A stretch of DNA of 64,000 bases from Metarhizium brunneum (lineage: Eukaryota > Ascomycota > Sordariomycetes > Hypocreales > Clavicipitaceae): assembly GCF_013426205.1 (NCBI RefSeq), contig NC_089423.1:7068001-7132000 (forward strand), written 5' to 3'. The notes beneath the pieces are model-generated. The model did not search any database, was not told where the DNA came from, and was given only the letters and a program-made list of their open reading frames with translations. Each line of letters begins with the position of its first letter. Within the stretch, counting starts at the first letter, position 1. Below are positions 12,524 to 48,700 of this stretch, piece by piece. A program made the position numbers and the translations under genes.

Positions 12524-15500
12524 ATGTCAGGCCGGCTCTCTTCCCATGCGAGCGGCACAGACGGCGATGGTCTCATGCCGATCGCCGTTGTGGGAATGTC
12601 CTGCCGCCTCTCAGGTATTGCCACGAGCCCGGAAGGCCTTTGGCAGATGCTGGCAAGGGGCTTAACGGGATGGTCAAGCAACGGGAGCAGCCGCTTCCAA
12701 ATGAATTCCTTCTGGCACCCGCAGTCTGACTTGAACGCTTCGGTGAGTCGAGCTCTGCCATGAAAGCTGCCGCCGCCCCCTTTCCACTAACAGGCTATAG
12801 TTCAACGCAAGAGGCTTCCACTTGATCAAGCAGGATCCCGCATTGTTTGATAATTTGTTCTTTGGGGTCACCAACATTGAGGCCAGGGCCATCGATCCTC
12901 AGCAACGAATGCTGCTTGAAGTAGCATACGAAGCGTTCGAGACGGCGGGAATCACGATGCAGAATGTCAAAGGCTCAGATACAGGGGTATATTGCGCGGT
13001 TTCACATCACGACTATGACAAGATCCTAGGCAGGGATCCCGAGTTATCCCCAGGGTGAGATTCTTGACGTGAGGGTTTTTTTCATCAGATGTTGACATTG
13101 GACAAGATACCGATTTACCGGAACTGGACCTGCGCTCGTTTCCAACCGCATTTCCTACGTGCTTGATTTGCACGGGCCAAGTATCACTCTTGATACAGCA
13201 TGTTCCGGTGGACTGGTTGCGGTTCATGAAGCCTGTAAAGCCATCCGGGCGGGAGACGTGGCGCAAGCACTAGTCGGTGGCACGAACTTGATTCTCGATC
13301 CAGACCAGGTCAATATCATATCTTCAATGGAGTAAGTGCTCCTGAGCTCAAAGAAGAGGGACGACGATTTAATTGTGCGACAGCTTCCTCTCTCCCCACG
13401 GCCGCTGCTACGCGTTCGATTCCCGTGCCGATGGTTTTGGAAGGGGTGAAGGCGTGGCTGCTGTCGTGCTGAAGCGCTTAGACATGGCCCTTGGTGACGG
13501 CGACCCGATTCGGGCTGTCATTCGTGGTAGCAACGTTTGCTCGGATGGTCGCACGCCTGGAGTCACAATGCCATCTTCCGACATCCAGAGGAGAATGATT
13601 CAGAGAGCCTACCAACAGGCAGGCCTAGACCCGAGGGATACCACCTATGTGGAAGCACATGGTTCGTTTCTGGTTGCCATGCCTTGATGCAGAAATGACT
13701 GACTCGGCGAGCAGGAACTGGAACCAAGGCCGGAGACAAGGCCGAAGCGACTGCTCTCCATGAGACCTTTTGCAAGGCAAGGCAAGAGGGAAATAGACTG
13801 TTTGTCGGAAGCGTCAAGGGTAATGTGGGCCATACAGAGAGTGTGGCCGGATTGGCCGGTCTGATCAAGACGGTTTTGATGCTCGAGAAAAAGATGATAC
13901 CCCCCAATGCCACGTTCATGAAACCAAACAGCGACATTCCATTGGAAAGCTGGGGCATGGAAGTGCGTCTTCAGACTCTCACAGAAGCCCCTTTACTATC
14001 CTGTCAAGCTGGGACTGATGCATTGTGTGCAGGTGCCTAAAAGGATGCTCCAGTGGCCGGACAATGCCACTCGCCGCGCCTCAGTCAACAGCTTTGGGTA
14101 TGGAGGTACAAACGCCCACGTTATCCTGGATGCGGCCGACGATTACCTCGACAATATGAAGCACATGTGCCCCCCAGTCGCTATTCGAGCTTGCGAGGGT
14201 AAAGTCAACGGAGACTTGGCACACGAAGTGGCAGAAGTTACGGAAACAAGTAGTCTCGCCATGACCATAATTGTTTCAAACCCAACGGAAGCAGAACCGA
14301 CGACGACGCACGTCCATGGCCATTCGACTCTACAACACAGGAGGAGCCTGAAAGCTTCACCCACCAACGCCATGACGCGACCACGCCTCTTTCCCTTGTC
14401 GCACGATCAGGAAGGGGGCGTGGCGAAATTAGCGGCCAATTTCAAGCGCTTTATTTTGGACAAGCTGCCTGATACGAATGAATCTCTGGATAGTCTTGCC
14501 TTCACTCTATCGGATCGGCGGTCTGTCCACAGGTTTCGTTGGTGTGTAGCCGCATCCAGTCGTGACGAACTTGTGGATGGACTTGAACACATAGTCGAGG
14601 GCACGGATCGGGCCCTACAACAAGCTGAAGAGCGAAAAATATGCTTTGCTTTTACAGGTATAGTCGTGATGAGGATATGCAAACTTTTGCACACAAGAGT
14701 CTAACACCACGTAGGTCAGGGTGCTCAATGGGCAGGCATGGGCCGCGAATTGCTGGCCGCATACCCTGTATTTGCCAAGTCCATGGAGCGCTCAGAAAAG
14801 TATCTCACCCACCTCGGTGCTGACTGGCGGCTTCTCGCCGAGCTGGATAAACCATGGGAAACGTCTCGAATCAACGAAGCCGCCCTGTCACAGCCTTGCT
14901 GCACCGCCATCCAGATTGGACTCGTCGACTTGCTCGAGACGTGGGGAATTCGACCAGCCTTGGTGTGCGGACACTCGAGCGGAGAAATTGCGGCGGCATA
15001 TGCAGCTGGCATCATGACAGCACAGGATTGTCTGAAAGTCGCCTATTTTCGTGGCCATCTGGTGAAGCGGCTGAAGGAGAAGAAACCCGAGCTTTCCGGC
15101 GGCATGCTTGCTGTTGGACTGTCGGTAGGCGAGGCGCAAAAATATCTTGACAATGACGCCACTTGCGAAAAGGTCGTCGTGGCGTGCGTCAACAGTCCTG
15201 CCAGTATCACCTTGTCCGGAGATGAAGCAGTGTTGAGCAGCATTCAAGAGACGCTCGCCGCCAGAGGCGTTTTCAACCGCAAGCTGGCGGTTGACGTGGC
15301 CTACCATTCGCACCATATGAACATGATTCTGGAAGAATACCTGCACGCCATTCAGGACATCAAACCTTTACACTGCGGGCAGCATGTCCAAATGGTATCT
15401 TCTGTGACGGGCAGGGCCGTTCAAGGCGAGGAGCTGAATGCGACGTATTGGGGTAGAAACCTGACATCTCCCGTTCTCTTTGCCGATGCTCTGGCCGAGA

Positions 15501-18500
15501 TCTTTGACACGGCGCGAAAAAACGAAAAGCGAAGCAACATGCTTGCGGTTGTCGAGGTTGGCCCTCATTCTGCACTGCAGGGTCCCATCAAACAGACCAT
15601 CAAGGCGTCCAAAACAGCGGGATCCATCAGCTATCACTCGGTGCTCTCACGGAAGCAAGACGCAAGTAGGACTGCCGTGGCCTTGGCTGCAAGTCTGTTC
15701 GTCAATGGAGCAACCGTCGATTTTGGTCGAGTCAACGATCCGCATGGCGACGCCAAAAAGAACGTCTTGACCAACTTGCCAACGTACAATTGGCATCACA
15801 ATACCACGCACTGGGTCGAGTCCCGCCGGAGCGCTCAATATAGACACAGAAAATTTCCCAAGCACGATCTTGTTGGAGTGCCCAGCAGCGACAGCATACC
15901 CAGCGAACCGACATGGCGCAACTACATCCGCCTCAGGGAATTGCCTTGGCTCAAGGGCCATTGCATTGGTGGCAACACCATTTTCCCAGCCGCTGGCTAT
16001 GTGACCATGGTTTTGGAAGCCCTGAAGCAACAAATCCTCGGTGGCGGAAACCCCTGGAAGAAGATGCGTATCAAATTTCGCCAAGTTCATTTTGGTCGGG
16101 CGCTCCTCGTTGCCGACGATTCTGTGGGCGTAGAGACATTCGTCACCATTCGACCTTTTACGTACACGGCACGAGAATCTTCGGCTTCGTGGAACGAGTT
16201 TCGGATATTTTCCGTGTCTGTCAATGGAGAATCAACAGAGCATAGTCGGGGTCTGGTGACTGCCATCAGTCCTTTGCCCAACCAAGACCATGAGAATATG
16301 ACGGATGCCGAGTCTCTTGCGTTTATTGAACAAGTTTCCGAGAAAGCTCGCATAGTACTCCCCCCGAAGCAGCTATACAAGGAGCTCAGAGACGTGGGTA
16401 TTGAGTATAGCCACCCGTTCAATGGCCAAGAGCACATTCGAGCATCCGAGTCCGCATCGACCTGTCGAATCAAGATTCCAGATATCGAGGCTCTTATGCC
16501 TTTGCATTACCAGCAACCTCATTGCATCCACCCAGCAACATTGGATGTCTGTTTCCAAGCAGCCTTCTCGGCCATGAAGGTCGGAGACAATCTTCGGGGT
16601 ACATTTGTCCTCGGCGGGTTTGACGACCTTGAAATCTCGAGTGAGATTCCGTCGCAGCCTGGAAAGCACATGTCCGTCGCGGCATCTCTTCGAGGCCTTG
16701 GCCACTCCAATTTCGCATCCGATTCAGTCATCTCGAGCTCCGACGACGGAAAATCAGAAGTCTTCATAAAGATCAAGGGGCTCATCCTTGCCAGGACAAG
16801 TGGACCATCTCGGCAGACTTCTTCACAGCATCTGGCTGGAGAATCCCTGTGCCATCGGCTAGAGTGGTCCCTTGACCCGACTTGCGCCGAGCCTCACAGC
16901 ATCATCAAGCGTTGCCTTCTCGACCCGGACGTGTTGGTGGCTGGGAGAACGAGCATGTGTGAGCAATACTGCCAAGCTGTCGTGGCAGGGGCACTAACAG
17001 AGCTCTCTCCCGACGACGAGGCAAAGATTACTGGCCACTTTTCTCAGTGGCTCCTGTGGATGAAGTCAATAAGGGCTGGAAGCTACCAGCCACTCCAGAT
17101 GGGCAACGCGCTCAACGATAAAATCAAGTCTCTTGGCATCTACGGCGAGGTCCTGGTGGACATGGCACCTCGGCTCGTAGGTATTCTTCGGGGAGACGTT
17201 GATCCCCAGGCACTCCTTCTGGAGAAGCAGCGTCTGTACCGGCTCTACACGCGCGACAACATCAAGAGGTGTCACATGCAGCTGGCCGAATATGTCAAGC
17301 TTCTTCGATTCAAAACTCCCAATCTCCGCATCCTCGAGATTGGGGCTGCAACCGCAGACGGGTCGATGCCGGTTTTGGAAGCTCTCTACAGCAACAAGGG
17401 CGTTGCAGGAGAAGCGAGGTCCGAGTCGTATACCTTGGCCTGTGCTCCGACAGCGTTCTTCCAGGACGCAGAAACGGGATGGGATAAGGCGCAAGAGTCT
17501 CTAGAGTGGAAGAGGCTTGACATGGAAATCTCACCCAAAGAACAGGGGTTTGAACTTGGCTCGTACGACCTCGTCATTGCCGCCAATGTCTTGCATGCGA
17601 CTCGCGAGATCAATGTCGCGCTGGGAAACATGAGGAGCCTGCTCAAATCAAATGGCAAGCTTGCTGTGATGGAGACGACGGCCCCAAAAATTCACGACGG
17701 AGTCATATTTGGCATGCTCCCTGGATGGTGGCTTGGAGCCACGGACGGTCGGGTGCACTCACCACTTCTCGATGCATCTGGTTGGCGTGATAGGCTCGGC
17801 CATTGTGGCTTCTCCGGAATCGACTTTGAGATGCACGACTTCGACTCGGCCGAGGACCACCAGGTCAGCGTCATGGTTTCTTCAGCAACTAGCCATCCAG
17901 AGCCATGGTGTTTGGGCATGCAAGACCCGACGAGAGGCGTGTCAACACTAGAATCCGAGTTGCCAATCTCCAAATACCCAACAAACCTGACGGGCTCGGA
18001 AGGAGGCCCTCGGCAGACCATTCTTGTGATTAGTGACGGTAAAGAGAGCAGACTTGCAGACCATGTAGCCGAGCTATTGACCTCTGTCGAGTCCAGCGTC
18101 CACGCTGAGAAGACCATGTTGGCTGAGGCGCAGGTTTCGCCTGGTCAGCTGGCCGTGGTGCTGCTCGAGGCAGTCCATCCGTTCCTGGCGACATGCTCTC
18201 AAGCGGATTGGGGAAAAGTCCGGCATATCCTTTCCAACGCAGACGGTGTTTTATGGGTCAGTTGTGGCGGCGCCGTCGAAGGCACGAATCCTCTCCAGTC
18301 GCTCATCGTGGGCCTAACGCGCTGCCTGCGATCCGAAGACCAGCACAGAAAGGTCGTCACGCTGGATCTCGAGCCGAATCACGGGTCGGGGCTCGAGACC
18401 GCAGAGCAGATTCGCAGAGTCTATCATCATGTATTCGGTCCACATGGTCCGCCAGCCTCTGCCTTGCCGGAATTTGAATACGCCATCCGCAATGGAGAGA

Positions 18501-20878
18501 TACTGATTCCTCGCTTGATGTGTAACAGTCCCGTGAATGAATATGTCCAAGACAGCGTTTCGAGCTACCACCCTCGACACGAGCAGGGAATGAAACCAGG
18601 CCGTGCCTTGAGCCTGAAGATCCACGAACCTGGGCTTCTCAACACACTCTACTGGGCCGACTCGGAGCGGCACGCGCGGAGCGTCGGAGCCGAAGAAGTC
18701 CGGGTGGATTTGCAATACGTCTCTCTCAACTTCAAAGACATCATGATCGCCATGGGACAACTAGAAGGGCACACGGCCATGCTGCTGGAAGGGAGCGGCA
18801 AGGTTGTCGAGGTTGGTGAAGCACTCCGTCATCAGTACTCTGTCGGTGACTTGGTCTTCGCCACCGATCCAGACGGTGTCGCCACGACCAGCGTCATTAA
18901 CAAGTGCAACGTTCATCACATACCCAGGAAGCTGTCCATGGAAGTCGCAACCGCTATTTCTCTCGCCTATGCAACGGCTCTGTATTCGCTGAGGAATGTT
19001 GCCAATCTCCAAGAGGGAGAGTCCATTTTGATTCATTCCGGAGCAGGCGCAGTTGGCCAAGCCGCCATCTCCCTGGCTCAATATCTCAACGCTGGCGAAA
19101 TATACGTCACGGTGGGGAGTGCGGACAAGAGGGCCCTCATAAGAGAACGCTTCGACATCCCAGACGACAAGATATTCTCCAGTCGCGGTCTCAGCTTCTA
19201 CCATCAGATTCTTCGCAGGACAAATGGTGATGGTGTCGATGTCATTCTCAACTCGCTCAGCGGCGAGGCGTTGCAAAAAAGCTGCTCCCTGCTCGCGCCG
19301 TTTGGACGGTTTGTCGAGATTGGTAAGAAAGATGTCATCTCCAACGCGAGGCTTGAAATGGCGTCTTTGGAAAGCAACGCCACATTTACTACCGTTGATT
19401 TGACGCTGCTTGCAAAGAGGAAGCCTCTTGTTCACCAAGAGCTCTACCGCACCATCTTTGAGCTCGTTGGCCAGGACAGGATCAAAGTTTTGAGCCCTAT
19501 AACGGTCAGTCCTGTCTCCGAGCTGGAGACTTCATTTAGGCTGATGCAGGCTGGAAAACACGTGGGCAAACTACTGCTCCAGTTGGACCCGGACATGGCA
19601 ATTTCCGTACGTGCACATCGTCCCATCTTGATAAACGTTTTTGCTGACTTGGGCTTGCAGGTCCAACCTCCACGGCCACCGACTCCTCGGCTGAAAGGGG
19701 ATTGCTCTTACCTGGTCGTGGGAGGAACCGGCGGCCTTGGTAGAGCCACCATGAAGCATTTTGCGAGTCTCGGGGCCAAGCACATTTTTACCTTGTCCCG
19801 ATCTGGTTCCGACAGTCCAATTATGAGAGAACTGGTGGAAGAGATGCGTCTTGCCGGTGTTTGTGTTGTCGTGTTCAAGGGCAGCGTCACAGACACGGTC
19901 GCGATTGAGTCGATCAAGGAGCAGGCCAGAGAATTCCCCATCAGAGGTGTTGTCCAAGGAGCAATGGTGCTGCAGGTACGTGCTCAACCGTCTTTCACAA
20001 CAGTGGAGATTTCTAATGGGAAACAGGACTCTCGCGTGGACAATATGAGCTACGAGCAGTGGCGGGCTGCAATGGAACCGAAAGTTGTGGGAACAATGAA
20101 TTTGCACCGCGTGTTCGGAGACACTCTAGACTTCTTCATCCTCCTTTCGAGCAGTGCAGGAATCATTGGCTCGTATGCTCAGGGCAACTATTCCGCTGGC
20201 AATACGTTTCAAGATTCCCTCGCTCGCCACAGGGCATCGCTCGGTCTGCCAGCTCGCTCCATCGACGTTGGCTCCGTGGAAGGGGAAGGGTACACGGCAA
20301 ATAACGAAGCGGCCGCGGAATTCGTCTCCCGCCAAGGACTGCAGCCGTACAAGGTCAAGGAGTTCCTGGCCACAATCAATGAGGCGATATGGAATCCCTT
20401 TCCATCCGGGCCCTCGGCAGCGCAGCTGATTTGCGGCACGAGGAGAGCCGATCCAAGTTCCCAAGCCAAAGAAGCAGCTCTGCAACGTCCAGATCCCAAA
20501 TTCTCCCACATATGGACGAAGCCCCATCGCCAGGCATCTGCCAAGGCTGACTCGAGCCATTTCAATATTCAAGCCATGTTTGAATCAGCAAAAACGGCGG
20601 ATGAAGCCGAAAAGGCGATGCAGATAGCAATCAAGCAGAAGCTTGCTCATCTGCTTGGCCTGCCAGAAAAGGACGTCAGCACGAATCGCTCCGTTGTGAG
20701 CTATGGAGTGGACTCTCTTATTGCGGTGGAGCTTCGCAACTGGATCTTGTCACAGTTGGAATCTCACGTCCAGATATTCGAGTTGATGAGTCCGATGAGT
20801 TTCGCCGAGCTGGCCAACACGGTTGCCAGAAGATCTCGGCTTGTGGCGACGGGACTTTTCGGCCATGTCAAAGTCTAG
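12524..20878 (+). CDS. Highly reducing type I polyketide synthase
   Basis: Nine exons encode 2635 residues: 12524-12742, 12801-13054, 13107-13331, 13384-13661, 13715-13962, 14033-14657, 14715-19606, 19661-19975 and 20027-20878. Domain order is KS (20-440; Cys190 in TACSGG, His325 in EAHGTG, His365 in KGNVGHTE), AT (612-930; Ser704 in GHSSGE), DH (998-1290; His1032, Asp1227), C-methyltransferase (about 1440-1640), ER (1915-2235; HSGAGAVGQ near 2057), KR (2260-2440; GGTGGLGR, Tyr2407) and ACP (Ser2582 in GVDSL). There is no thioesterase or reductase, so release needs another enzyme. The methyltransferase SAM loop reads IGAATADG instead of IGAGTGG and is probably inactive. The last two introns are multiples of three without stops; they are placed by GTACGT donors and the break in KR homology. 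The product is a reduced polyketide of unknown structure. Confidence 0.95.
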
Positions 20879-21174: not shown

Positions 21175-23340
21175 TCACCACCACTTGCTATCCGCCGGCA
21201 CACGTCGAATAACGTTGGATCCGCAGTGCACATCGCCCATTTCAACATGGTGCGTGAACCAGTCGTCAATGTAGCGAACCGTATAACCCGCCTTGGCGTA
21301 GGCCTCGTCCGCCGCGGCGGCCAGGACATCCCGCCCGTCGATCACGGGCCCCCACGGGTTCGGCGCAATGACGTGCTTCCTGTCGACGACGACGCTGTTG
21401 ATAATGCCGGGGTACAGCGCCAAAACGGGCCACGTCTCAAACTCGGACCAACTGAAGCTCTGGCGGCGCTCTATACTCGCTCCATTCCCGTCTGCCAACT
21501 TGGTAGGCGGCGTACCGGCGTCCAGCGCGTTGGCGGCCTTGACGCGTACGGCGCGACGGGACATGCGTCGCGTTTCGTTGCCGGCCTTCTTCTCATAAGT
21601 CCAGATGTCGCTCACGAAGCGGCCCCAGGGGTCCGGCTCGAGGTGGTACAGACACGGCAGGCGGATGACGTCGGCGTCGGTCAGGCCCGTCTCGCGCTTG
21701 AGAATCTCGATGTTGCCGGCGATGTGGGCGGCGCTCTTGTTCTGCACGGCAGCAAAGTCGGTGCTGTCGAGCACCTCGTCAATGGTGGTGGTGACGTGCC
21801 ACTCTTCGGGGTCGGCGGGCGAGCGAGGGCGCGAGACGGCCTTTTCTTTGCCGTGGCCTGCCTGCCGCGCCTGCCGGAGGATGTCGAGGCCCGCGAGCGG
21901 ATCGTCCGCCATTAGAACCCAGCCGAGCTTGTTGTCGGCGGGGAGGAACTGCAGGAACTCGTCGACGTGGCCGACGGAAAGCCACGACGTGTTGAGCTCA
22001 ATGGGGGCCTGTGTCTCCTGGGCCTCGAGAAAGGCCATCATGTGCGGCTTGGTCTTTTGGGTGCCCATGACGGCTCGCCCTGCGGGATAGGCCTTGCCGC
22101 GGTGCGAGTACGGGGGTATCGTCTCGAGGTTTCCGGTAGAGTCGACGGTGTCGCCGCCCGCGAGGTGCTGGACGGCTCCGACGGTGTTGGAGCGCAAATC
22201 CTGAAACACCTTGCGCCCGGCCTCGCGGTAGTCCTGCGCCGACCGCAGCATAATGTGCAGGCTGACGGGGCCGTTGGGCCCGGGGATGCTCATGTAGCCG
22301 GGCTCGAAGAAGTCCTGCGTCCACAACTCGCCGCAGCCTTCAAAGGCGTGCATGGGGCTCTCGAGGCCCAGGGAGGAGGACATCTCGCCGAGCTCCTGGA
22401 CGAAACGCTCGTGGCCCGAGTCCCTGCCTTTGGGGCCGTCGACTTGCGATGTCAGCAGCTGCTTGGCGGCCTGGCCGTGGTGCTGCGTCAGGACGGGCGC
22501 CACGCGGAGTGCCACCGAATCCCGGGCTTCGTGTCCCCCGTCTTTTACCGTGAACTCGACCGTGGCTCGGCCGTCCCACCCGCCGGGGCGGCGGACGTCG
22601 CGCGCATCAATGCCAAGCTCGAGACCTGCTTTGAGCTCTGCGGCCTTGAAGGTGTAGTTTGACGTGATGAACACCCACTGGCCACTGGTTTGCTGTTTGT
22701 GGAACAGGCGAACCTTGGAGGCGGCCAGCATGCGGGTCACGGCGACGGTTCCCGTGGCCGAGTTGCCAAGCCCGGGGATGGGTCGAGTACGCAGAGGCGC
22801 CAGGTAGGTTGCGTTGCGGAGTATGTCGTCCGAGGCGTCGTTGCAGGCCGATATCTTCCTGTCCACCTCGTTTATCTTTTGGTAATCCGGCCCCTTGAAC
22901 AAGTAGTCGTAATAGAGGGCTCTTTGGCCTTCATTGAGGCTGTTGTACCACTGTTCCATGGATCCCCCGTCTCCAGGCGTGTCGGGAAGACGTGGGTCGG
23001 GGACCGGCGTCTCGGGCGGCTCTGTCGCGTTGAAGATGTCGCCCAGCCCGCTGGCACAGGAGCCCGTGATTTGGGATGAGCATCGGCGGTCCGTGTCGAC
23101 GATATTGGCTAGGAAGAGGGCGCCGGCGTCGTCTGTCCACGTCTCTTTGCCGACGGTGTCGGTTTCGCCCGCGACATCGACCCTGCCGTCGCGGTTCGTG
23201 TCCGCCAAGATGGACACGGTAAAACTTGGGCCGCTGGAGGCCGTGGAGTCCTGGCCTGCCGCGGCGGCACGTTTCTTGAGCGGGCCTTGAGGAATGGCAC
23301 TGGCCAGGGGCAACACGACTAGAATGAGTGAAGGGCGCAT
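21175..23340 (-). CDS. Secreted protein-arginine deiminase
   Basis: A single exon encodes 721 residues. Residues 1-16 form a signal peptide (cleavage near ASA-IP), followed by a KKR site that may release a short propeptide. Residues about 40-90 match the middle calcium-binding domain of animal PADs (ADTNRDGRVD, then a WT...GA.FL.N..DTD pattern). The animal N-terminal domain is absent. The C-terminal catalytic domain keeps every essential residue: Asp343 in TQDFFEPGY, His458 and Asp460 in SVGHVDEF, and Cys706 in VHCGSN. PADs convert peptidyl-arginine to citrulline and normally need calcium. The signal peptide places it outside the cell. It ends 296 bp from the convergent PKS gene. Fungal homologues are known but rare compared with animal PADs. 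Confidence 0.93.
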   Translation of the reverse strand: MRPSLILVVLPLASAIPQGPLKKRAAAAGQDSTASSGPSFTVSILADTNRDGRVDVAGETDTVGKETWTDDAGALFLANIVDTDRRCSSQITGSCASGLGDIFNATEPPETPVPDPRLPDTPGDGGSMEQWYNSLNEGQRALYYDYLFKGPDYQKINEVDRKISACNDASDDILRNATYLAPLRTRPIPGLGNSATGTVAVTRMLAASKVRLFHKQQTSGQWVFITSNYTFKAAELKAGLELGIDARDVRRPGGWDGRATVEFTVKDGGHEARDSVALRVAPVLTQHHGQAAKQLLTSQVDGPKGRDSGHERFVQELGEMSSSLGLESPMHAFEGCGELWTQDFFEPGYMSIPGPNGPVSLHIMLRSAQDYREAGRKVFQDLRSNTVGAVQHLAGGDTVDSTGNLETIPPYSHRGKAYPAGRAVMGTQKTKPHMMAFLEAQETQAPIELNTSWLSVGHVDEFLQFLPADNKLGWVLMADDPLAGLDILRQARQAGHGKEKAVSRPRSPADPEEWHVTTTIDEVLDSTDFAAVQNKSAAHIAGNIEILKRETGLTDADVIRLPCLYHLEPDPWGRFVSDIWTYEKKAGNETRRMSRRAVRVKAANALDAGTPPTKLADGNGASIERRQSFSWSEFETWPVLALYPGIINSVVVDRKHVIAPNPWGPVIDGRDVLAAAADEAYAKAGYTVRYIDDWFTHHVEMGDVHCGSNVIRRVPADSKWW

Positions 23341-25019: not shown

Positions 25020-27041
25020 TCACGGCAGCCGTAGCCACAGCCTCCGCAGCTCCTCAAACATGGGCGTCCCCAGCCCCGTGACCGGATCCCACCCCCGCAC
25101 GGCAGAGAACCCCGACGAGCCGCAGTTCGGATTCGACCCGCGCGTCACGTCCGTCAGGGCCGCGGGGTTCTTGTACAGCGCGGGGTTGATGAACCCGACC
25201 GTGGTCTTGCCCGCCCGCGCCCTCTCCTGGTTCACCAGCGTGATGACGGCGCTCCACAGCGGCGCGGCGAGACTCGTCCCGAACACGTGCTGGTCGGTGC
25301 CGTTGGTGAAGGCGCGGAAATTGGCCCCGTTGGCCGCGATATCGGGGATCCCGCGGCCCGCCCGGTTGTACACGCCGCCGCCGGCGCCAATGTTGGACGC
25401 GTCCGCGTCGGCCACGTAGGAGCGGAGGCCCGGGTCGTGGCGCGCCAGGTACGACCGCACGGCGGCCCGCTGGTACTCGGGCACGGGGAAGTAGTTGGAG
25501 AAGCCGCCCCCGCTGGCGAAGAGCTCGGCGCCGGGGAGGGGCGTCTGGAGCGCGGCCTCGGGGTCGCGCACCGTGGTGTTGGGGTTGAGCTGCGTGGCCC
25601 CGACGGCGGTGAGGTACGGGCACGACACGGGGTTGCCCGGGTTGTAGACGGTGTTGGTCTGGCCGGAGCCGTTGAGGCAGGCGTTCGCGCCGGGGCCGAT
25701 GCCCACGCCGTAGTCGCCCGACGAGACGAGGACCGTGGTGCCCTGCAGCCCGAGCTTGAGGAACTCGTTGCACTGGCGCTGCATGTACTTTTTGGGCACG
25801 TCGAGCTCGCTCTCGCCGTAGGATATGGAGATGACGGGCGCCGCCTTGTAGGCTCCGCACATCTCGGCCTGCTTGTAGCCTCCCGGGTGGGAGTCGGGGT
25901 AGCTCGGGTCGATGCCGGGGCTGTCGCCGGTAATGTTGAAGTCCGTCTTGTGGCAGTAGGACCCGTCCAGGGCGTCGAGAAACGTGTTTAGGAACCCAGA
26001 GGTGTTGCTCTGGGTCGAGTAGTAAATGTCGTCCACTTGGTACAGCAGCATGGACTGCGGCCAGATGAGTGACTGCACAATGTCAATGTCAATGTCTGAT
26101 TCGCCCGTGTTCTGCGGTGACTGGGGTGGCACCGGAGCCTGGGCACCGTCTACAGAGTGTAGAGTGGGGTGAGTTCCGTTGGGGATATATGGCGTGTACT
26201 TGTGCAAGTACGAGTTGATGTCCTCTTGCGAGTACGTGTCTCCAATCTCATACACGGCCGGCTCCAGTCCCGGAACCGGGGTGTTGGCGAGCGGGATCTG
26301 ATACAGGGCACGATAGCACGCTGCCGTAAAGTTTCGCGCGCAATCCTTGAGTTCCGGCGGCAAGTTTGAGGGCGGGGGGGTCTTGCAGGAAGGCTTCTTG
26401 CGAGAAACCTTTTTTGGCTCCCAGTTCTTCCTGTTCTGTGCGGTGATTCGTTTCGCAGGCGATCTGGCCTTGGCCGAACGCCTCACCATGAGGGGGGACA
26501 ACTTTACCCCGGGGATAATATAGTCAATGTGCTGGGAGAGATGCTTCGGGACGCGGTACTCGTCGCAGCCAATCTTGATTGCGCCGTCGTGTTCATGCTC
26601 ATGGTATTGAGTTTGAAACAGCTCCTCGGCCTTGGACACGGGGACGTCCAGCGCCAGCCAGCCCTTGTTGGTGTATTGGCGAATTTGCGTCTTGCTGATG
26701 CCCATGTCGACAAGCCAAGAGTGAACGGCAGTCAACGTCTCGTCTGACGGGGCAAACAAGGCATGGACCTCATCTTGGGCCAGGTGCTTGCCAAAGTGCT
26801 CCGAGTCCGGGTCAGACACATTCATGAGCTTGCCATAGGCCTCGTGGAGATTGGACTGCGCCAAGCCAATCCGCAGCGGTATGACTGCGTCCGGATGGAC
26901 GCGATTTCCACGTTTCCATAGGTGGTTTTGGCGAGTGCTTGTCGGGTTCCGCGCCTCGTGAAGAACATGATTGTTTGATGGCAGAGCCCACGCCGATGCA
27001 GAGGCGAGAGCCACAACGGCGGCTATTGAGAGCTTCACCAT
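25020..27041 (-). CDS. Sedolisin (S53) tripeptidyl-peptidase-like protease, secreted
   Basis: A single exon encodes 673 residues. Residues 1-19 are a signal peptide ending in AWA-LP. A Pro-kumamolisin activation domain covers about 50-190 (HLAQDEVHALFAPS and related motifs). The mature sedolisin domain follows a basic Lys/Arg-rich linker. The catalytic residues of the family are all present: Glu314 and Asp318 (GESDIDID), Asp443 of the oxyanion site (SSGDYGVG) and Ser590 (FGTSLAAP). The length fits fungal secreted TPP1-like enzymes, which act in acid and remove peptides from protein N-termini. Several NxS/T glycosylation sites fit secretion. It is transcribed in the same direction as the deiminase. 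The 3' half has very high third-position GC, which produces long antisense open frames. Confidence 0.95.
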   Translation of the reverse strand: MVKLSIAAVVALASASAWALPSNNHVLHEARNPTSTRQNHLWKRGNRVHPDAVIPLRIGLAQSNLHEAYGKLMNVSDPDSEHFGKHLAQDEVHALFAPSDETLTAVHSWLVDMGISKTQIRQYTNKGWLALDVPVSKAEELFQTQYHEHEHDGAIKIGCDEYRVPKHLSQHIDYIIPGVKLSPLMVRRSAKARSPAKRITAQNRKNWEPKKVSRKKPSCKTPPPSNLPPELKDCARNFTAACYRALYQIPLANTPVPGLEPAVYEIGDTYSQEDINSYLHKYTPYIPNGTHPTLHSVDGAQAPVPPQSPQNTGESDIDIDIVQSLIWPQSMLLYQVDDIYYSTQSNTSGFLNTFLDALDGSYCHKTDFNITGDSPGIDPSYPDSHPGGYKQAEMCGAYKAAPVISISYGESELDVPKKYMQRQCNEFLKLGLQGTTVLVSSGDYGVGIGPGANACLNGSGQTNTVYNPGNPVSCPYLTAVGATQLNPNTTVRDPEAALQTPLPGAELFASGGGFSNYFPVPEYQRAAVRSYLARHDPGLRSYVADADASNIGAGGGVYNRAGRGIPDIAANGANFRAFTNGTDQHVFGTSLAAPLWSAVITLVNQERARAGKTTVGFINPALYKNPAALTDVTRGSNPNCGSSGFSAVRGWDPVTGLGTPMFEELRRLWLRLP

Positions 27042-43447: not shown

Positions 43448-44305
43448 ATGGCCATCCCCTCCCCGGACCAAGTGCCTCGCGGCGACGTCACGGCGGCGCT
43501 CAACTTCTACGCGCCGCCCGCCGACAAGGCCGCGCGCCCATTCAACTACGTCGACTCCCCGCCGGCCGGGCAGCCCCAGCGCAACTACAGCGACCACGTG
43601 CAGGACACGCTCATCCGCGACGTGCGCGGCCGCGAGTCCGCCTTCACCCTCGACCGCGACGCCTTCCAAATCATCTCCGACGTGGCGCCCTCGTCGGAAC
43701 CCTCCTTCGCCGACGACGCCTCCATCCGCGCCCGCTACTACCCCGAGGTGGAGGCGCTCCTGCTCGCCGCCATCCCCGGCTCCCGCGCCGTGCACATCTT
43801 CGACCACACCCTCCGCCGCGCCGACCCGGCCGCGCCCCGAACCCCCGTCACCCGCGTGCACATCGACCAGACGGCCGCGTCGGTGGAAAAGCGCGTGCGG
43901 CGCTACTTCCCCGACGAGGCCGACGCCCTTCTCGCCGGGCGCCACCGCATCGTCAACGTCTGGCGCCCGCTCAACGCCCGCCCCGTCGAGTCGTTCCCGC
44001 TCGCCTTTGCCAGCGCCGCGACCCTCGACCCCGCCGACGTCGTGCCCGTCGAGCACCGCTACCCGGACGGCTACACGGGCGAGACGGCCGCCGTGCGCTA
44101 CAGCCCCCGCCAGGAATGGTACTACCTCAGCGGCATGACGGGCAGCGAGAGGCTGCTGCTCGAGTGCTTCGACAGCGAGTCGCTCCGGCCGGGGAGCCGC
44201 GTCGGCGGCCGCGTCCCGCACACGGCCTTTGTCGACCCGAGGACGAGGCTGGGTGCCGAGGGCAGGGAGAGCATCGAGGTGAGGGCCTTGGTGTTTGGGC
44301 CGTGA
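43448..44305 (+). CDS. CmcJ/AsaB-type hydroxylase/desaturase-like protein
   Basis: A single exon encodes 285 residues. The family pattern is complete: DVRGRESAFTLDRDAFQI, YYPEVEALL, FDHTLRR, RVHIDQTAAS, INVWRPLN as VNVWRPLN, GETAAVRY, WYYLSGM, PHTAF and RESIEVRALVF at the end. The family is annotated variously as 7-alpha-cephem-methoxylase P8-like, GA4 desaturase or AsaB-like. Members act as oxidising or tailoring enzymes in several fungal pathways, and the conserved His residues suggest metal use. No secondary-metabolite backbone gene is adjacent, so the substrate is unknown. Third positions are almost all G or C, far above the neighbours, which also opens a long antisense frame. Confidence 0.85.
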   Translation: MAIPSPDQVPRGDVTAALNFYAPPADKAARPFNYVDSPPAGQPQRNYSDHVQDTLIRDVRGRESAFTLDRDAFQIISDVAPSSEPSFADDASIRARYYPEVEALLLAAIPGSRAVHIFDHTLRRADPAAPRTPVTRVHIDQTAASVEKRVRRYFPDEADALLAGRHRIVNVWRPLNARPVESFPLAFASAATLDPADVVPVEHRYPDGYTGETAAVRYSPRQEWYYLSGMTGSERLLLECFDSESLRPGSRVGGRVPHTAFVDPRTRLGAEGRESIEVRALVFGP

Positions 44306-44805: not shown

Positions 44806-46545
44806 TCAGCCGCGGCGGGCTCTGCCTCGTCCGCTGCCCGTCGTTCCTTGTCGGCTCATGGCCACGCCGCCGAGGCTGCTCTGTCTGCTCATGGGTATGG
44901 CCGACGCAGAGTATCCCGCCACAGACTGGTTGGAGCCGCCGTGGCCAGGGCTCAGTTGGTCTCGCAGGCCGCTGGTGGGGATCCCAAGGGAGTCGCGAAA
45001 GTTTTCGGGGTCTTCCCGCGCGGCGCTGGTGATGGCTACGAAGCGGCCCTGTTGGTACGGGATGGAGACGGCTTCGAGGATTTTGCGCAGCCCAGTCGGG
45101 GCGTCAAGGTGTGCGCCGGGCTTGTGAGAGTGATCGTACTGTTTGAGGAAGCCCATGACGGACAGGTCCGACATGATGTCGTCCTGTGAAAGTGGAACCG
45201 GGAAGTTCTGGTCCGCAGATCTGGGGTACGGCTTTAGATACTGCTGGGGCACGTGAGGGGGCATCTTGGGGGGTTCTTGGGCATGCATCAGGTCCAGGTT
45301 GGCCGGGACCTCAAAGTTGGCAATGCCCTCCACGCCGAGGATCTTGTCGTCCAAGAAGTTTGTGTTTGCGCCGCCTCTGGTGCTGCGGGTGGCGTGTGAT
45401 ACCTGGCGTTCCATCATGGGCGCCGACAGGACAGAGTCGGCGTCGTTGTCGTCCCCGTTGCCCGAGTCGCTGTCGTCGGGGGACGAAGCGTTGCCGTTGA
45501 CACGGTTGCGCAGGACGTATTGATGCGCAGCCAAAGCCGCGCTGTTGTAATGCAGGGACAATTCTTTGTCGGTGAAGAGCTTGTCGATGCTATAAATGGG
45601 GCCGTTTTGCTTCGCGACAGCACGTGCCTTTTCCGACTGCCACAGGGGAGTTGTGCTGTTGGGATCCAGGCCGCGGCGCATCGGGCCGGGCGATCCGTCG
45701 TCCTCTCCAGGATTTCGCTTTCGCTTCTTATCCGAAAACATTTGAAGGTCGTCGGCATCCTTGCGAAGTCTGGTGGCACGCTTGCCGTGGGTTCCGCCGG
45801 GGCTGCCAGGGTTTGTGAGAGAAAAGTGATTCGGGTTCAGGAGCAAGGCATTGGAATCGTTAATCTCCAACACTTCCTTTTCCCTATTCAGTCGGTTCTT
45901 CTTTTGTGTCAGGGTGTTGATAAGTCGGTCGCGCAAGGTGCTGGTCAGGGCCATGTGCTCGCGGCGGGCCGTCTCGACCTTGTAGGCGTGGGTATTCTTG
46001 TACTCTTGTACTTTTCGTTCATATTCATTCTGAATACACAAGGTCAATGTCAGTTGTATTCACAAACGAACGTTGTTTCATTTCATCTTGTTTTATTCTT
46101 GAGGGGGAGGGGTGTCTTGTCTCTCGTCTTTGCTCACCTTTGACTGCGTCAGTTGAAAATCACGAATCTCAATCAAATCCTCAATTTCGTCAATAAAGTT
46201 GGGAAACTTGATTCCAGCCATGTCCATGAGGCTACGGGCAGACTCAGCATGGACCGGAGGCCCCTGGGTCTGTCTGTGTTCTCTTTGCAGCTCAGCGGCA
46301 ACCTCCAAAGCGTTTGTGTCGTATGGATCGAATCGCTGCACGAGGCCAATCTCGTACTGGATCTTCTGCAGCTGGTCGCGGTACGTCATGTCCTGTTCGC
46401 GCTGAAACTTGTCCGTCATGCTGGAGAGACGCTCCATGAGGGCCTGTCTCTTTCTGTCGCGCTTCGATTGTGACGCTGGAGGAGGAGAGCGTCGCTCGGG
46501 TTTGCCGCCAAGGGCGGAGGGGACGGTATTGTCACTTGCGGCCAT
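44806..46545 (-). CDS. Sds3-like subunit of the Rpd3 histone deacetylase complex
   Basis: Two exons, 46545-46138 and 46029-44806, encode 543 residues, joined in phase 0 (LTQSK-NEYERK). The start MAASDN is the first ATG in the frame. Residues about 35-230 form the Sds3/Dep1-type helical region (KRQALMERLSSMTDKFQREQ..YRDQLQKIQ, and after the intron YKVETARREHMALTSTLRDRL), a long coiled coil. The later part has a basic stretch (KKRKRNPGEDD) and a C-terminal Gly/Arg tail. Sds3 scaffolds Rpd3/Sin3 and is needed for deacetylase activity on chromatin; it acts in the nucleus. The assignment rests on the helical domain, and the rest is family-specific or disordered. Confidence 0.87.
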
Positions 46546-47557: not shown

Positions 47558-48700
47558 CTACAGCCCGCTCCTCAATTTCTGCAACTGGCTAATGAGTCCA
47601 AACCCGCCAGGAACCTTGGATTCCTCGCCAGCCCCCTCCTGGCCACCAGGCTTCTTGCCTTGTGAGCCCGCAGCCCGGCCCTCCCTCCTCGCCGCCTGGT
47701 CCATCTCCCTCACCAAGTCCCTATGCCTATCCTCGACCATCTTGGCCAGGCTCTCAATAAACTTGCTGCGGCCCTTTTCCTCCGCCGTGCCTTTCCACAC
47801 GACACTCAGCTCCTTGAGCTCCTCGATCCTAGCGGCGGCCCTTTCAATGCCCTGGATGGGGTCGTCGCTCTGCTGTAGAAAGCCCGCAATCTCGTCGCGC
47901 AGCTTCCGTAGTACTTGCTGCCCCTTTTCCTCGGAGCTCTGCTGCTCGGAGCCGGGTTCCGGCGCGGAGACGGACAGGAACCCCGAGCTGACGGATACTT
48001 CTGACGGCGGGAAGGTAAAGTCCATGGCGTCGCCAAAGGTCTGGATGACGGATTCGAGGCGTGACCGGACCAGTGTGAGTGTCTGTAGCTGTTTGATGTA
48101 TTCCGGGTCAGATGAGTCGTTGGCACCGGTGGCAGCGGCGGCATCAGCCGGCGGCGGCGACGCCTCAACGCCGTCCTTGTCCTCGTCGGCTTCACCCCTC
48201 CTGGTGGCCTCCTTCCTCGTTTCGTGATTCGGCTGCAGACCACCCGGGACGAAAACCTCAATGTCCTCCTTGAGCGTCTCGTGCAACATTTCCGACAGGC
48301 CCAGCGTCTCGCCCCTCAGCAACTCCACCTCGTACGCCAGCCGGCTGCCGCTCCTCAAAATATCATCCGTCAGCTGTGTCAGCGTATTGGACAGCCGGGT
48401 AGTCTGCGCATTCAGCTGCGATAGCAAGGTCTGCGCTTGGGCGGACAGCTCGGCGAGCGGCACAGCACCAGCCGGCTGGGAGGACGCCTGCCTGCTGGCG
48501 AGAGGCGGCAAAGTAGCATTCAGGTAGGCGGCGGGATCAAATGAGGCGTCTAGAAAGTCGTGGAGAAAGTCGTCGGCGGTATGTGCCGACCTGGGCTGTA
48601 CGGCTGCTTTGGACTGCTTCCGCGCATGCTGGCCGTTTCTGACGGGGAGCGTGGCCGCATTGCTGCTTGTCCGTCTGCGGGCATGTTTCTGCTCCGCCAT
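47558..48700 (-). CDS. Probable conserved oligomeric Golgi complex subunit (Cog7-like)
   Basis: The product is 380 residues with no intron. The start is the first ATG (MAEQKHARRR); the frame extends upstream only to non-ATG codons. After a basic N-terminus, residues 43-62 read FLHDFLDASFDPAAYLNATL, the short motif that opens several COG/exocyst-like tethering subunits. A long coiled coil follows (LLSQLNAQTTRLSNTL...GETLGLSEMLHETL) like the first helices of Cog7. The middle is acidic and disordered. The C-terminal half is helical, with KKPGGQ and Gly-rich segments near the end. COG tethers vesicles in retrograde Golgi traffic. The choice of Cog7 over Cog5 is uncertain; the identity as a vesicle-tether-like coiled-coil protein is firmer. 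Confidence 0.68.
   Translation of the reverse strand: MAEQKHARRRTSSNAATLPVRNGQHARKQSKAAVQPRSAHTADDFLHDFLDASFDPAAYLNATLPPLASRQASSQPAGAVPLAELSAQAQTLLSQLNAQTTRLSNTLTQLTDDILRSGSRLAYEVELLRGETLGLSEMLHETLKEDIEVFVPGGLQPNHETRKEATRRGEADEDKDGVEASPPPADAAAATGANDSSDPEYIKQLQTLTLVRSRLESVIQTFGDAMDFTFPPSEVSVSSGFLSVSAPEPGSEQQSSEEKGQQVLRKLRDEIAGFLQQSDDPIQGIERAAARIEELKELSVVWKGTAEEKGRSKFIESLAKMVEDRHRDLVREMDQAARREGRAAGSQGKKPGGQEGAGEESKVPGGFGLISQLQKLRSGL

Follow-up and report, generated by a model that had tools for sequence, protein, structure and literature searches.

Human protein-arginine deiminases (PADs) act as a single chain and modify themselves, and we know of no secretory two-chain maturation step in animal PADs. 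In fungi, PMC8826395 reports PADs in 177 of 1,098 species with proteomes: these are two-domain enzymes, sister to actinobacterial PADs and probably acquired from actinobacteria by horizontal transfer, from which calcium sites 2 and 4 are absent; active PADs from Aspergillus nidulans and Emericella dentata are also cited there. Here we analyzed a stretch of 64,000 nucleotides of Metarhizium brunneum (contig NC_089423.1, positions 7,068,001 to 7,132,000; 'the window' denotes this whole stretch), which carries a PAD gene on its minus strand. We propose, with moderate confidence, that this gene, from an insect pathogen, encodes a secreted calcium-dependent PAD that would be matured into two chains by Kex2-type cleavage. 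The features that place the protein in the PAD family are:

21175..23340, minus strand: PAD gene, a single open reading frame (ORF) of 721 amino acids (ORF and PF03068 at 367.8 bits)
21178..22527, minus strand: catalytic PAD domain (PF03068), residues 272-721 (Pfam profile search)
22495..23226, minus strand: middle (PAD_M-like) domain, about residues 39-282, with a DTNRDG loop and Cys87/Cys166 (structural alignment to PAD4 and conserved columns)
22312..22314, minus strand: catalytic Asp343 (alignment to human PADs and conservation)
21961..21969, minus strand: catalytic His458 and Asp460 in GHVDEF (alignment to human PADs and conservation)
21223..21225, minus strand: catalytic Cys706 in HCGSN (alignment to human PADs and conservation)

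The frame runs without interruption from an ATG at 23340 to a stop at 21175. PF03068, the sole Pfam family in the protein at E 0.01, matches over profile positions 3-394 of 395 with an E-value of 8.7e-110 and 367.8 bits (curated cut-off 25); an NCBIfam search gave no match at E 0.1. The middle domain was not recognized by the Pfam profile PAD_M at E 0.01, but the predicted model aligns with PAD4 from PAD4 residue 105 onward and thereby covers this domain, so that both parts of the PAD fold were found. Because no more than about 30 residues, counting the signal peptide, stand before the PAD4-aligned part and PAD_N gave no Pfam match at E 0.01, the animal N-terminal domain is absent. In the alignment to solved human PADs, W-x-Q-D343, G-H458-V-D460-E and H-C706-G-x-N fall on the PAD motifs; in our first homologue list Asp343, Asp460 and Cys706 are each kept in 120/120 proteins and His458 in 119/120. 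The preliminary description of this locus had staked its claim of an intact active site on His458 and Cys706, and both match the PAD positions; its calcium-type middle domain and missing animal N-terminal domain were likewise borne out. Family, fold, active-site residues and the absent N-terminal domain are thus established by computation and, judged by its sequence, the gene product is a member of the fungal/actinobacterial two-domain PAD group. It resembles the proteins described in PMC8826395 in its middle and catalytic domains, the lack of an N-terminal domain and the conserved catalytic residues. Human PAD4 and PAD1 (PDB 3b1u and 5hp5) differ from it in having the N-terminal domain; the window protein instead starts with a putative signal peptide, contains a long loop bearing a kexin-type site and retains calcium site 2 in part at most.

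The loop lies between two parts of the active site and holds the site on which the proposal is built:

21415..21642, minus strand: loop that separates the catalytic His/Asp segment from the Cys segment, residues 567-642, variable except for an IxEA-type core and the Kex2-type site
21460..21471, minus strand: Kex2-type site ERR/Q, residues 624-627 (sequence and low-confidence segment 622-629)

Loop size varies from 38 to 163 residues among 120 homologues. The predicted model contains only two segments of at least three residues with a predicted local distance difference test (pLDDT) score below 50, residues 4-33 and 622-629, and the latter holds ERRQ 624-627. In most fungal PADs, L-x-R-R-Q or a variant of it lies near the loop end: KR or RR occurs in the loop of 107/126 rows, and the distance from the end of the final pair to residue 642 has a median of 11 residues (interquartile range 11-14). 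We extended the count to 154 fungal rows, i.e. the window protein, four paralogues (L001 counted as row P0116) and 149 homologues drawn from the best 120 of 1,022 and the best 120 of 846 matches; the interrupted copies L006, L008 and C7:275834-276953 were left out. The aligned P1 position is Arg in 142/154 rows; among these, P2 is Arg or Lys in 110, P4 is Leu, Ile or Val in 120, and P1' is Gln in 83, Glu in 22, Asp in 12 and Ala in 9. KR or RR within the last 30 loop residues was found in 118/154 rows (77%) against 42.1 ± 4.9 in shuffled tails (maximum 55 in 300 shuffles); 18.3% of 30-residue stretches from the protein core contain such a pair. Without rows of at least 70% identity the excess persists (63/85 against 21.6 ± 3.8 in shuffles). 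Bacterial PADs, mostly from Streptomyces (L009-L088), keep each of the catalytic Asp, His, Asp and Cys in 80/80 proteins and have a loop of 20-76 residues at the same place but, unlike the fungal proteins, no enrichment of KR or RR in its tail (11/80, shuffles 16.7 ± 3.1; non-redundant 2/13, shuffles 2.5). The short IxEA-type core is present in 103/126 fungal and 8/80 bacterial rows. The fungal loop therefore has a conserved cleavage-type site, and ERR/Q, which is dibasic, has conserved surroundings and sits in a loop with predicted disorder, looks as would be expected for a kexin-processed secretory protein.

Several observations weigh against this reading. Sites without a basic P2, such as GRQ or ARQ, are poor Kex2 sites, and they make up 32 of the 142 rows with P1 Arg; 12/154 rows have no Arg at P1 and 36/154 no KR or RR in the loop tail. 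In the clade of 25 rows that includes the window gene the Arg is kept in 25/25, but KR or RR in the tail is found in only 15/25. Among the five catalytically complete PADs of the genome, the window protein, L002 and L005 have the pair, L001 and L004 do not. In a quickly built 70-row tree, 14 changes are required to account for the dibasic state, which occurs in 3/7 bacterial rows as well, and the aligned P1 column is basic in 62/80 bacterial proteins (Lys in 38, Arg in 24). The sample comes mostly from Hypocreales, to which a small number of Glomerellales and a single Dothideomycete name are added, and it contained no Aspergillus PAD. The alternative would be an ordinary single-chain secreted PAD whose RRQ lies in a flexible loop and is rarely cut, or cut without consequence. 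The activity of human PADs as one chain and the few residues that they have at this place (PAD4 577 to 583, against 568 to 640 here) speak for such an enzyme, as do the variability of the loop, the non-basic P2 residues and the uneven occurrence among the paralogues. We nevertheless regard it as rather unlikely, considering that L-x-R-R-Q lies far above shuffled tails and above the bacterial relatives and stands out from a variable loop precisely at the low-confidence segment. A third explanation, that the conserved Arg is a target of autocitrullination or another regulatory residue rather than a protease site, draws on the better conservation of P1 Arg than of a basic P2, on its presence in every row of the window gene's clade, and on the self-modification of human PADs. 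The aliphatic P4, the predominance of Arg or Lys at P2 and that of Gln, Glu or Asp at P1' fit a kexin-like site better, and we consider this explanation improbable.

A disulfide conserved across the loop was considered and rejected: Cys residues in 504-522 and in 564-610 are both present in 90 and both absent in 34 of the 126 fungal rows with only 2 discordant, but the pattern is suggestive at most because no more than 3 independent pairs on well-supported branches inform it. In the window protein both Cys are missing from their usual places.

At the N-terminus of the window protein, two putative features were read:

23296..23340, minus strand: putative signal peptide, residues 1-15, ASA/IPQG junction (by eye; pLDDT below 50 at residues 4-33)
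23269..23295, minus strand: putative propeptide IPQGPLKKR with dibasic end, residues 16-24 (sequence)

The preliminary description had called the enzyme secreted. With the putative signal peptide MRPSLILVVLPLASA/IPQG, read by eye, this is likely. KR is found at a similar place in P0001, P0004, P0006, P0009 and P0015 but not in every relative (e.g. P0003 and P0018). Some PADs of insect pathogens carry runs of a DDGPPYNPK-like repeat that follow the signal peptide and precede the middle domain; P0003 and P0009 have the repeat in regular form, P0014 and P0022 in a looser one, and the window protein does not have it. In the proposed two-chain maturation the signal peptide would take the PAD into the secretory pathway, where a Kex2-type protease of the Golgi would remove the short N-terminal propeptide after KKR24 and also cut the loop after Arg626. 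In the product, Asp343, His458 and Asp460 would lie on the heavy chain, Cys706 on a light chain some 95 residues long. Outside the cell and with calcium, the enzyme would probably convert peptidyl-arginine to citrulline. Regarding calcium, in one alignment PAD4 E351 and D369, ligands of calcium site 2, fall on Phe344 and His362, and the switch Asp, PAD4 D388, falls on Asp381. The switch column varies among fungal PADs; PMC8826395 reports Gly in fungi where the window protein has Asp381.

Fungal PADs themselves are already known, and the Kex2-type loop site is newly described here. In the main text of PMC8826395, 'secreted', 'signal peptide', 'Kex2', 'proteoly' and 'zymogen' do not occur. Literature searches, in which subscription papers were mostly outside the scope, returned no paper on processing of a PAD by kex2, judged by title and start of the abstract, and none on a Metarhizium protein-arginine deiminase; a search for citrullination with entomopathogenic gave no fungal PAD paper by the same measure. 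The earlier remark that citrullination is hardly studied in fungi is fair for function, and histone citrullination is listed as not reported in fungi in PMC8038932; the enzymes themselves are already described in PMC8826395, with active examples cited.

A second peculiarity of the window protein lies in its middle domain:

22846..23079, minus strand: long stretch between Cys87 and Cys166, 78 residues, mostly confident in the predicted model

Each of the two Cys positions is occupied by Cys in 125/126 fungal rows. The stretch measures 78 residues here, compared with 11-25 in the five other open-frame PADs of the genome. It reaches at least 40 residues in 27/154 fungal rows and in 23/25 rows of the window gene's clade, and so marks most of a subgroup from insect pathogens. 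Among the matches listed, the closest relatives are 97% and 76% identical to the window protein and five Beauveria proteins (P0002, P0004-P0007) 69-74%, whereas named Metarhizium proteins reach about 55%. The Beauveria PADs share the clade, the long Cys87-Cys166 stretch and the RRQ/RRE loop site, but come from another fungal family than the host of the window gene. Two PAD records carry extra domains, P0012 with PF11927 and P0126 with zinc alcohol dehydrogenase domains, and are perhaps gene-prediction fusions.

The 70-row tree, rooted for drawing only, separates 63 fungal from 7 bacterial rows, and named rows in the 25-row clade come only from insect-pathogen genera. In a more careful tree of 21 rows of known genus, the window protein falls in a set of 7 together with six Cordycipitaceae (support 100/100), and another set contains Cordyceps, Akanthomyces and Beauveria alongside Metarhizium. 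The approximately unbiased (AU) test rejected a tree that keeps the five Metarhizium rows in one group (p = 4.0e-6; grouping tested after the first tree had been viewed). Transfer between insect pathogens may explain the mixed grouping; old paralogues with losses would be the alternative.

The genome (7 contigs, 37.8 Mb) holds at least nine PAD loci on five contigs, derived from 14 matches. In five of these loci (window, L001, L002, L004 and L005) the frame is open and none of the four catalytic residues is missing. L007 (G000:C5:4028215-4029504, minus strand) also has an open frame and sits on a very long branch; it keeps the Asp343 position and is a possible, on its sequence likely, pseudoenzyme because Gln, Ala and Arg replace the catalytic His, Asp and Cys. 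A solved-structure record describes PAD6 of mammals as inactive. L006 and L008 contain one in-frame stop each and the ninth copy (C7:275834-276953) several. L008 belongs to the same subgroup as the window gene and by eye resembles the intact P0015 of M. humberi; the start of its open frame, behind an AT-rich stretch, is about 9.4 kb away from a telomere-type repeat with which C6 ends. Both L008 and L090 lie in the first 12 kb of G000:C6. Repeat-induced point mutation (RIP) found no support as the cause of the broken copies: set beside the window and the open copies, L006, L008 and the C7 copy show no clear RIP signature in TpA/ApT or (CpA+TpG)/(ApC+GpT), the highest TpA/ApT being 0.95 in L008.

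Two neighbours of the PAD gene had been noted before:

14738-20878, plus strand: large polyketide synthase (PKS) ORF, acyltransferase to carrier-protein domains (ORF list and Pfam)
25020-27041, minus strand: sedolisin-type protease (pro-kumamolisin; ORF list and Pfam)

The PKS ORF and the PAD gene are arranged tail to tail; no ketosynthase match was found within the PKS ORF, the part further upstream lying outside the test. The sedolisin follows on the strand of the PAD. Among the best 120 of its 663 matches one cluster is 98% identical, others 69-78%, followed by Trichoderma, Purpureocillium and Tolypocladium at 67-68%; the closest named relatives come from these genera and Cladobotryum. Because no named Metarhizium, Beauveria or Cordyceps appears in this list, the sedolisin too may be patchy in the genus. 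A joint transfer of PAD and protease from Beauveria found no support, given these relatives of the protease. Nor do PAD and protease recur as a pair: among the 12 pro-kumamolisin matches in the genome (some of them exons of one gene) only that of the window lies within 100 kb of a PAD. The functional link between the PAD and its neighbours, suggested in the preliminary description, therefore found no support across the nine loci; PAD, PKS and sedolisin are tied by position alone. GC content at third codon positions (GC3) is 0.81 for the PAD, 0.82 for the protease and 0.61 for the PKS ORF, and decides nothing on the origin of the PAD because ORFs 44806-45954, 47558-48700 and 43448-44305 in the window reach 0.74, 0.76 and 0.95.

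The likeliest setting for the enzyme is the insect host, since the named proteins among the 23 best matches all come from insect-pathogen genera. The insect-pathogen subgroup suggests a role in the host, as does Beauveria bassiana, where one of three Bb8028-specific arginine deiminases was higher in infected mosquitoes, without replicates (PMC5134283). Both also argue against a mainly nutritional or self-modifying function, in which arginine in peptides or in the fungus' own secreted and wall proteins would be deiminated; this is a real possibility, if not the one we prefer, as PADs also occur in Fusarium, Trichoderma and Verticillium and, in Pochonia, PAD-like enzymes are reported at lower levels midway through infection (PMC12405259). 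More tentatively, we suggest as one scenario that a kexin site was gained after acquisition from bacteria, giving two-chain fungal PADs with an active site from both chains, and that the long-segment subgroup of insect pathogens multiplied and moved between Metarhizium and Cordycipitaceae, serving as a toolkit for citrullination directed at the host. Two-chain fungal PADs, if the cut takes place, would give an enzyme family of medical importance a form that is processed in nature, and the catalytic Cys would then have its own chain of about 95 residues. Should the insect-pathogen subgroup act on the host, citrullination would add a new kind of interaction between fungi and insects; a PAD was found in 0 of 142 insect species (Table 1 of PMC8826395).
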